From positions 1 to 38,513 of the forward strand of contig CAILJQ010000134.1 of assembly GCA_903834625.1 (NCBI GenBank): 38,513 bases of DNA. The letters run 5' to 3'. Below, one piece after another: positions 23,641 to 26,343 of the stretch (positions are counted from its first letter, which is position 1; the number at the start of each line of letters is the position of its first letter). The notes under the pieces were generated by a model, which saw only the letters and a list, made by a program, of their open reading frames with translations, did not search any database and was not told where the DNA came from. Made by a program: the position numbers and the translations under genes. The DNA is from an uncultured Bacteroidota bacterium (GTDB taxonomy: Bacteria; Bacteroidota; Bacteroidia; UKL13-3).

Positions 23641-24818
23641 AGCCAGTTTTTAGTTCGTCCAAGTTTCTTTGTCTTTAGCATTCATAATTATTTTTCCATC
23701 ATAGATACTTAATCCTTGCCAGCTTCCAAACCAAACTTGTCCTTTGTTATCTTCGAGAATACTTTGTGTGACATTGGAGGTCAATCCGTCTTCGGTTGTG
23801 AATTGTTTGAAATTATTGCCATCATATCGGTAAACACCATAACCTTCAGCCGTAAACCAAATATTCCCTTGGCTGTCTTCATAAAGATTGTAAGTTTCTT
23901 CACCTGCAATAATTCGGTTCTTTGTGAAATTGGTGTATGTTTTACCATCAAATTTGCTCACACCGCCATTAAAAGTTCCAATCCAAATATTTCCTTGTTT
24001 GTCTTCTAAAATATCGGCAACGTTATTATCGGTAAGTTCATTTTTAGCTGTTAAATGAATAAATTCTCCATTTTTATATTTAAAAATCCCATTCCCATCA
24101 GTAGCAAACCAGATATTTCCATTCTTGTCTTCTATTATTTTAAAAACCAATTTGTCAGATAGCATTGGTTTTGCATTTTCGACTTTTGAACCTGGCAATG
24201 AAAAAGGTATAAACTTTTCACCGTTAAAATGACAAACTCCTCCTGTCGCCCCAACCCAAATAAGTCCGCTTTTGTCAATTGTTAAACCCCAAATTTCAGC
24301 ATTCACACCGGGCAGTCCTTCTTTGAATGAAAATGTCTTAAATATTTCCCCTTCGTATTTTATGAGTCCTTCGGATGTTCCAAACCAAATATTACCTAAT
24401 TTATCTTCTACAATCTCTAAAACCCTAAAATGTGGACTGATTCCGTCAATGGTGATTCTTTCAAGTATTTGTCCATCATAGCGTATAATTCCATCTCCAT
24501 TTGTTCCAAACCAATAGTTCCCTTTTTTGTCCTGATACATTGTCCTTACAAACTCTCTTACCATTCCATTTAAGTTGGTGTGTATTTGCGGAAAGGTCGT
24601 GCTTTGTTTTAAAATGAGTGGTTGGGTGTTTACTTCATTTTCTATTGTATCGGTAACAGATTTTTCTTTCACCTGTCCATTGCAAGAAGTGAATTGCAGA
24701 GTTGTAAGCAACCAGATTAGAATCCTTTGGTTAGATAATATTTTACTCATATTCATAATAATTATCTTGTTCTTTAATTTATGTGCTAAGTAAGTTCTGT
24801 TGTAAAATTGGCTATAAC
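23636..24818. repeat. 10-bp perfect inverted repeats bounding the propeller gene
   Basis: GTTATAGCCA at 23636-23645 and TGGCTATAAC at 24809-24818 are exact reverse complements and enclose only the propeller lipoprotein gene. The left copy is continuous with element R3. This delimits a discrete 1.18-kb unit that could have moved as one piece. No transposase is present. Confidence 0.5.
23650..24756 (-). CDS. Stand-alone two-component-regulator-type propeller lipoprotein
   Basis: 368 residues from the ATG at 24756 (a second ATG lies at 24750). The signal sequence ends LLTTLQFTSC, so it is probably a lipoprotein. It contains seven Reg_prop repeats of about 40-45 residues, for example MYQDKKGNYWFGTNGDG, VEDKLGNIWFGTSEG, LEDKQGNIWIGTFNGG and LEDNKGQVWFGSWQG, enough for one closed beta-propeller. 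Such repeats usually form the periplasmic sensor of hybrid two-component kinases. Here there is no transmembrane helix, kinase or regulator domain after the propeller, so it may be a soluble binding protein or a detached sensor. It is the upstream-most gene of the island. Confidence 0.85.
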   Translation of the reverse strand: MNMSKILSNQRILIWLLTTLQFTSCNGQVKEKSVTDTIENEVNTQPLILKQSTTFPQIHTNLNGMVREFVRTMYQDKKGNYWFGTNGDGIIRYDGQILERITIDGISPHFRVLEIVEDKLGNIWFGTSEGLIKYEGEIFKTFSFKEGLPGVNAEIWGLTIDKSGLIWVGATGGVCHFNGEKFIPFSLPGSKVENAKPMLSDKLVFKIIEDKNGNIWFATDGNGIFKYKNGEFIHLTAKNELTDNNVADILEDKQGNIWIGTFNGGVSKFDGKTYTNFTKNRIIAGEETYNLYEDSQGNIWFTAEGYGVYRYDGNNFKQFTTEDGLTSNVTQSILEDNKGQVWFGSWQGLSIYDGKIIMNAKDKETWTN

Positions 24819-24843
24819 TTGTATATAGGGATGCAAAAAACAT

Positions 24844-25282
24844 CCATATTAACCCAATTTAGGTGTATAGGGATGTAAACTGCCTTTAACCAAATATATT
24901 ATAAAGCATGTATAAGTTCAATGGGCTTTTGATTTAAGGTACAAACAACCCATCGCCCCGGCATACATGGGTGGGTAAGCCAGATAATAGGTTGAACTCC
25001 GTTCGTGGTTGTAGTGCGGTATTTCCTCCTAACGCAAAAACATGCGACCCCGGAGGGGTCGAAGGAATCATTGGGGGTTTGCGTTTGCTATAAACGTTGG
25101 ATCCCGAAGGGATCCTTTACTGGTAGGTAGTTCTATGTACTACCTTAAAAAGAAGCATTCACTTCGGCTTGCGCTCTATTGCTTCTTTAAAAGAGTTTAC
25201 ACAATCACTTTACGCTACCGCTAATGGCTAACACCTGATACAAATACCCTAATCAACATCAATGTTTAGGGTATTGATATAG
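24844..25282. other. Gene-poor stretch with short palindromes
   Basis: No gene is supported. It contains two palindromes of the same 7-3-7 design: CGACCCC-GGA-GGGGTCG (25045-25061) and GGATCCC-GAA-GGGATCC (25099-25115). There is also a hairpin AAAGAAGCA / TGCTTCTTT (25149-25188), and the decamer TATAGGGATG is repeated just before it and at its start (24824-24833, 24866-24875). A 60-codon open frame on the plus strand runs through the palindromes and is not credible. The pattern is that of dispersed intergenic repeats. Confidence 0.6.
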
Positions 25283-25607
25283 CTGTTTGACCTATAGCAA
25301 CTATGCATTTGTTAATAGCTTTGACCAATTGGGTGAAAGCTATTACCGATTGGATGAAAGCTTTTACAGATTTGATAAATGCTTTGATGAAATCGGTAAA
25401 AACGATAGCCCAATGGCTCATTGCTTTGACGATTTTGGTGATTGCTTTGACCCATTGGCTAAAACGATTCATGAAAATCATGAAAGCTATTAGCGATTTG
25501 GTGAAAGCTATTACAGATTTGATGAAAGCATTGACTAATTAAATGAAAGCTATAACCCATTTTATAAAAGCAAGGATGAAATGGGTAATAACTATAGGTC
25601 AAAACAG
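25283..25607. repeat. Degenerate 21-bp tandem array with self-complementary units and inverted flanks
   Basis: About a dozen degenerate 21-base units (AAAGCTATTACCGATTGGATG type) run from about 25314 to 25585. On the plus strand a frame from 25303 to 25542 encodes heptads such as KAITDWM, KAFTDLI, KAISDLV, KAITDLM. After TAA-ATG it goes on to 25680. On the minus strand a 71-codon frame also encodes heptads (QWVKAIT, KIVKAMS, DFIKAFI, QLVKAIN) because units are nearly palindromic, for example AATAGCTTT...AAAGCTATT at 25314-25344. CTGTTTGACCTATAG (25283-25297) and CTATAGGTCAAAACAG (25592-25607) form a near-perfect inverted repeat around the array. Whether any frame is translated is unknown. Confidence 0.7.
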
Positions 25608-25690
25608 TATGCTTATACAAGAAATGGCTATAGTAAGAGCCATTTGGGTTGATGCTAATAAGGGTGAAGCTGTTCCATGACCTTAACTAA

Positions 25691-25882
25691 GGACTAAAAT
25701 CACGAATGAAAGAAAATTATTGTCCCAAGAAAATCAAGCCAAAAACCAACAACCAACCGCTTCCAATTTGGCTCCGCCGACGCAAAGGTACCATGGTCTA
25801 TGGTCCATCGACTATGGACTAAAATCACGAATGAAAGAAAATTATTGTCCCAAGAAAATCAAGCCAAAAACCAACAACCAAC
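25691..25882. repeat. Perfect 67-bp direct repeat, two copies
   Basis: Bases 25691-25757 and 25816-25882 are identical, starting GGACTAAAATCACGAATG and ending CCAACAACCAAC, with 58 bases between. The spacer includes a CTATGGTCCATCGACTATGG segment. The second copy ends two bases before the coaD stop codon, so the array abuts that gene's 3' end. Confidence 0.9.
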
Positions 25883-25884
25883 TG

Positions 25885-26343
25885 CTAAAAGCGAACTTCT
25901 TTAGGCACAAAAAGGTTGGCATCGCCGCCATTTCTGATTAAATCACGCACCACTGATGAGCTTATGGGCGTAAAGGCCGGATCACACATAAGGAAAACGG
26001 TTTCGGCTTCTGGATAAATGATTTTGTTCATTTGGGCAATGTTCTTCTCATAATCAAAATCGGCCATGTTGCGAATGCCCCTTAAAATATAATGCGCGCC
26101 AATTTGGTTGCAAAAATTTACCGTTAAGCCTTCATAAAAGTTGGCGCTTACTTTGGGTTCGTTGGCAAAAATCTGACTAATCCAATTCATCCTTTGCTCT
26201 ATAGGAAACAAAGTAGATTTACTGCTGTTGTGGCCTATACCCACCACAATTTCATCAAATAAAGGTATGGCCCTTTCAATGATGTTAACATGTCCAACGG
26301 TAATGGGATCAAATGTCCCCGGAAACAATGCGATTTTTTTCAT
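25885..26343 (-). CDS. coaD: Phosphopantetheine adenylyltransferase
   Basis: 152 residues, normal length. CoaD makes dephospho-CoA from 4'-phosphopantetheine and ATP. Nucleotidyltransferase motifs are FPGTFDPITVGHVNII (T15-V-G-H18) and ISSSVVRDLI (127-136); YILRGIRNMADFDYE is also typical. It lies 35 bases downstream of rsmD in the same direction. Confidence 0.97.
   Translation of the reverse strand: MKKIALFPGTFDPITVGHVNIIERAIPLFDEIVVGIGHNSSKSTLFPIEQRMNWISQIFANEPKVSANFYEGLTVNFCNQIGAHYILRGIRNMADFDYEKNIAQMNKIIYPEAETVFLMCDPAFTPISSSVVRDLIRNGGDANLFVPKEVRF

Follow-up and report, generated by a model that had tools for sequence, protein, structure and literature searches.

Genomic context and organization of the array

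The window analyzed here, a stretch of 38,513 nucleotides from an uncultured Bacteroidota bacterium (contig CAILJQ010000134.1 of assembly GCA_903834625.1), was found to contain about fifteen loosely alike 21-bp units, arranged in tandem and in a single register at positions 25293–25607. The array is intergenic, being situated past the 3' end of coaD with a gene for a two-component-regulator-propeller protein on its other side, and the reading frames that overlap it are all array-derived. The features of the region are as follows.

23650–24843, minus strand: gene for a two-component-regulator-propeller protein (Pfam Reg_prop, 4e-36)
25238–25280: separate hairpin directly left of the array, ATACAAATACCCTAATCA / TGTTTAGGGTATTGATAT
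25266–25481, minus strand: open frame of 71 aa with KAI-type heptads, judged incidental
25272–25292: degenerate left edge, partly unit-like (ATAGCTGTTTGACC) and out of register (identity 0.38, best shift −1)
25283–25297, plus strand: left arm of the terminal inverted repeat, CTGTTTGACCTATAG (scores 17 in local alignment and forms the stem that closes the fold)
25293–25607: core array, 15 in-register 21-bp units with consensus GAAAGCTATGACCAATTTGAT (TRF, register layout and unit identities)
25303–25542, plus strand: open frame of 79 aa with KAITDLM-type heptads, judged incidental
25592–25607, minus strand: right arm of the terminal inverted repeat, CTATAGGTCAAAACAG (local alignment; closing stem of the fold)
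25624–25649: separate hairpin directly right of the array, AAATGGCT / AGCCATTT, seen in the folds of both strands
25885–26343, minus strand: coaD, phosphopantetheine adenylyltransferase-like (Pfam CTP_transf_like, 8e-20)

The 21-bp tandem array proposed in the initial annotation was borne out by TRF, which reported two blocks within it (25317–25385 and 25480–25571), by the register layout and by the identity at lag 21, which reached 0.48–0.50 as against approximately 0.30 at other lags. Core units show identities of 0.48–0.86 (48–86%) to the consensus, with those between 25293 and 25586 matching best at shift 0 and the last unit being degenerate, and no net insertion or deletion is present in the single-register layout of the core. 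Both the tandem unit, of the 10–100 bp size range and present in many copies, and the location outside genes are as in bacterial intergenic minisatellites. As the 21-bp arrays carry no lag-7 signal, a period of 7 was rejected as the source of the period of 21. Promoters in or beside the array were no more frequent than in shuffled sequences.

Other repeats were also read from the sequence nearby. A direct repeat of approximately 66 bp, beginning GACTAAAATCACGAATGAAAGAAAATTATTGTCCCAAGAAAATCAAGCC, is located between the array and coaD (25692–25757 and 25817–25882), and a pair of short hairpins of high GC content, GACCCCGGAGGGGTC and GGATCCCGAAGGGATCC, lies on the side away from coaD (25042–25122), the former having a terminator-like score on the minus strand.

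Inverted repeats and predicted folding

The inverted repeats previously noted at the edges of the array were confirmed, their local alignment score of 17 being equalled by none of 3000 random pairs of 43-bp window stretches; within the array itself, 2.3% of pairs reached this score. The terminal repeat was not found to be dispersed in the genome beyond chance, and an origin of the edges as IS or MITE ends was rejected on this ground.

A region of 411 nt around the array gave minimum free energies of −137 kcal/mol (plus strand) and −114 kcal/mol (minus strand), with z-scores of −12.1 and −9.6, respectively, against dinucleotide shuffles. As such shuffles break up the repeats, three further controls were run. 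In one of these the 21 columns were permuted alike in all units, which retains period, divergence and composition. The window array folded better than 100 of 100 arrays permuted in this way on either strand, which shows the unit to be unusually prone to fold back. When columns were shuffled among units, an excess remained on the plus strand (z −2.5, 0/60) and was small on the other strand (z −1.5). Arrays in which only the order of units was shuffled folded nearly as well as the real one (z −1.2 and −0.8). Given the limited excess over the former and the almost absent excess over the latter, the bulk of the fold is a property of the unit rather than of a particular arrangement of units.

The unit had also been described as self-complementary and near-palindromic. 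This description is weakened: the consensus is self-complementary at 14 of 21 positions over circular shifts, a value within the ordinary range for such a composition (p 0.15), and no outstanding dyad was detected in it (p 0.75). The suggested non-coding element forming a long hairpin finds support only in the folding of the sequence as such, and pairing that depends on unit order is weak. No match near the gathering score was found in Rfam for the window region, and none for the sister arrays described below.

Reading frames

A 21-bp unit preserves all reading frames, and therefore a repeat of seven codons arises in each of them. At least one open frame on each strand was retained by 94% (P 0.94) of the shuffled consensus units. 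The heptads on both strands thus follow automatically from the unit length being a multiple of three. This is a general rule for tandem units of such length, which give periodic peptides, usually on both strands, and it corrects the attractive misreading of two-strand heptads as a design. The heptad frames reported by the initial annotation do exist, but they are expected by chance.

Stop codons in the frames that are open in the consensus numbered 2, 1, 2 and 2 in the window array, compared with 4, 2, 2 and 1 expected had the differences seen arisen independently of frame, and a stop interrupts the best frame inside the array. A frame constraint between units was hinted at by diversity, which in this array and in a second array of the same genome peaks at the third codon positions of the KAI reading frame (any-phase p 0.10 and 0.08). 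This is a weak hint of coding and the one such hint obtained, with the stops matching the non-coding expectation. No match was found above the gathering score in Pfam or above the cut-off in NCBIfam, and a protein search of 60 relatives returned no counterpart gene, the sole match outside the genome itself being another 21-bp array in the relative G006. Neither a continuous frame with conserved flanking domains nor orthologs in close relatives, as would be seen for a heptad coiled-coil gene, were found.

Related arrays in the genome, genus and family

A search of the genome for the 21-mer revealed a second related array on another contig, C29 (3698–4012, locus L021), so that the window array is not the single copy of its kind. 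It is situated in a different intergenic region and has the unit GCAAATTCGTCAAAGCTTTTA, which is related to the window unit when rotated. The unit pattern gave 14 matches in the genome, 13 of which lie inside the two arrays; its reversed form, used as a control, gave none. Neither flanks nor a terminal repeat are common to the two arrays. The C29 array shows no fold excess over column shuffles, and its frame, in the same phase as that of the window array, is open for 181 aa.

Arrays of 21–23 bp with species-specific units were found to recur within the genus (G004, G006, G001, G007 and G015), with further examples in the family (G029, G069 and G081); the sister units of the genus are unrelated in sequence to that of the window. 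In G006 two loci share one unit, TGCATTGAGCACTTGACAGAG. The unit of G004 is a double one of 42 bp (GCAAAATTTGTCATCAATAAG plus ACTCGGCGAGTCATCAATAAG), present at no fewer than 12 loci, and the array ends there show a recurring GC-rich sequence. The 22- and 23-bp arrays are unable to encode a repeated heptad, which speaks against coding as the reason for arrays of this kind. Most sister arrays also lack a fold excess. Together, the second copy and the species-specific arrays of the genus lend support to the minisatellite reading raised at the outset.

It should also be noted that in the dispersed intergenic arrays of G004 (at least 12; loci L183 and L186–L192) two 21-bp units with a common 12-nt core, CTTATTGATGAC, alternate. 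These arrays contain GACAAATTTGTC and GACTCGGCGAGTC as palindromes, and the GC-rich sequence recurring at their ends is GGTCGCYGAGCAGAGCCGAGGCGCC. Dyads occur in some sister units, GACTCGGCGAGTC being an example; a general dyad design of such units was rejected (Fisher p 0.24, 16 families). A 63-bp higher-order array in G015 (contig C32, L194 1377–1691) consists of three 21-bp units with the centers TTGCAA, TTGTACAA and GTGCAC. A 22-bp family, GAAGCTACTCCATAAATGGTG, was observed in two species, G007 and G004 (L208 1–88, L217 17745–17964 and L160 1–180), sometimes at contig ends.

A scan without preset period, covering 1.86 Mb of stretches sampled from the family, detected twenty 7-bp microsatellites outside long open frames. 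Among longer units, 22 bp (5), 42 bp (2) and 23 bp (1) were recorded, with other lengths as single cases. Besides the 7-bp microsatellites, the non-coding arrays in this sample are mostly of 21(42)–23 bp, with 22 bp the commonest. No other non-coding tandem repeat is as common in the family as the 7-bp microsatellites (AAAACCC, GCAATAG, TCTCCCA and others; loci L114, L115, L121, L136, L149, L193, L202 and others); repeats of heptamers are known in Bacteroidetes (PMC4679880).

At the position of the window array itself, a search of 40 relatives for coaD retrieved 29 other loci, none with an array beside the gene, and no homologous locus was found in relatives. The searches turned up no further genome of this species. 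Neither a conserved array nor an empty site could be recognized beside coaD, the flanks of the relatives not being alignable.

Beyond the family, 257 Gb of genomes were searched with a two-unit pattern taken from the window, which matched 18 stretches, mostly the antisense strand of heptad coiled-coil genes of RFEQVDK type. As these were found with the window's own pattern, the likeness is no proof of descent. No RFEQVDK-type gene was matched in the genome itself and the phase of raised diversity does not fit the antisense frame, and an origin from such a gene was rejected. The same applies to an origin from a phage or plasmid, as no phage, plasmid or viral contig matched.

Interpretation of the array

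The array is best explained as an intergenic minisatellite without coding function, belonging to a dispersed 21-bp tandem repeat that is specific to the species and occupies at least two loci, a reading to which we assign a probability of about 0.7. The observations behind it are the tandem structure, strict register, degenerate edges, related second locus, unrelated sister units and lack of a clear coding signature. Such an array would have grown and become partly homogenized by slippage or unequal exchange of whole units, which would keep the 21-bp register while substitutions accumulate. The fold-back tendency and the edge inverted repeats may arise from copies of the unit pairing together, and both may in turn aid slippage. 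Any cellular effect is putative and would probably be confined to the 3' end of the coaD transcript (its structure, termination or stability) or to DNA topology.

The strict register counts against a plain minisatellite, as do the third-position diversity of the KAI frame, a weak hint, and the plus-strand fold excess over column-shuffled arrays. At least 332 substitutions over 15 arrays were recorded while the cores stayed in register without net shift, although most arrays were detected through lag 21, which disfavors shifted ones; a few indels do occur in other arrays (G069, G001:C55 and G015:C39). Neutral decay should leave several indels. The unbroken register may reflect this detection bias, the purging of shifted units by homogenization or selection on length. 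A candidate helically phased array of binding sites for a DNA-binding protein, with 21 bp as two turns, would fit the register, the clustering of unit lengths near two turns and the dyads of some sister units (GACTCGGCGAGTC in G004). It is nevertheless very improbable, with unit sequence unconserved between species, dyads not enriched over families and 22- and 23-bp arrays drifting out of phase. A broader proposal is that the genus keeps species-specific, register-locked arrays of about two turns at several intergenic sites, the window array included, as phased binding or topology elements in which unit length is held and unit sequence turns over; this we regard as a long shot.

A structured non-coding RNA, or a hairpin stabilizing the 3' end, with its fold under selection, is suggested by the z-scores (−12 and −9.6), by the fold surpassing all column-permuted arrays and by the terminal inverted repeats that close the structure. 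We consider it unlikely in view of the near equality of the unit-order shuffles, the missing excess in C29 and in most sister arrays, and the missing Rfam match. Somewhat less likely still is a mobile element that resembles a MITE and carries the minisatellite internally, as BrickBuilt does: terminal inverted repeats, dispersed copies, the GC-rich ends recurring in G004 and the BrickBuilt precedent in Bacteroidota (PMC4596501) would all agree with it, but the C29 and window arrays have no common flank or terminal repeat, the terminal repeat is not dispersed beyond chance, and no convincing target duplication was seen by eye. The array as a gene, or two overlapping genes, for an amphipathic heptad-repeat peptide of KAITDLM type is improbable. 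The open frames of 79 and 71 aa, the 181-aa frame of C29 in the same phase and the weakly raised third-position diversity of both arrays are set against the expectation of open frames on both strands, the number of stops and the interruption of the best frame, the lack of domain matches and of a counterpart in the 60 relatives, and sister arrays whose 22- or 23-bp units cannot encode heptads. The proposal of an amphipathic-helix gene read from either strand is accordingly not upheld.

Comparison with known repeats

The RFEQVDK-type coiled-coil genes (Methylococcaceae, Beggiatoaceae, Dyadobacter and others) are likewise periodic at 21 bp, and their antisense strand (KALIDLF) matches the two-unit pattern, but they are long and open with terminal domains, which the window array lacks. 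In Leptospira interrogans and Methanocella conradii there are satellite families that resemble the array in being non-coding, in tandem and dispersed within a prokaryotic genome, with longer units (>30 nt; PMC6749651); the survey describing them regards families of this sort as rare, and the word Bacteroidetes does not occur in its main text. In Porphyromonas gingivalis W83, tandem repeats of 41, 23 and 22 nt and MITE464/PgRS have been reported, with unit lengths near 21–23 or double, the 41-nt repeats lying within MITEs (PMC4596501); no sequence relation to them was seen.

Contrary to the initial view that no named element has this design, BrickBuilt of P. gingivalis (PMC4596501) is a close analog and the closest relative in kind. 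Both occur in Bacteroidota and consist of imperfect tandem units of about two turns without spacers, at several intergenic loci per genome (two here) and in one or a few species only, with long predicted stem-loops. The BrickBuilt unit measures 23 bp rather than 21 bp, mismatch within an element is 0–11% against approximately 30% in the window array, and BrickBuilt has a leader and tail with IS5-like terminal inverted repeats, which are not common to the two arrays here. With no shared leader, tail or terminal repeats and with far greater divergence, the window array was not classified as BrickBuilt. BrickBuilt-like intergenic minisatellites of 21–23 bp are common in this Bacteroidota genus, and as their unit sequences differ between species while the register rarely slips, the cause of the register hold becomes a testable question.
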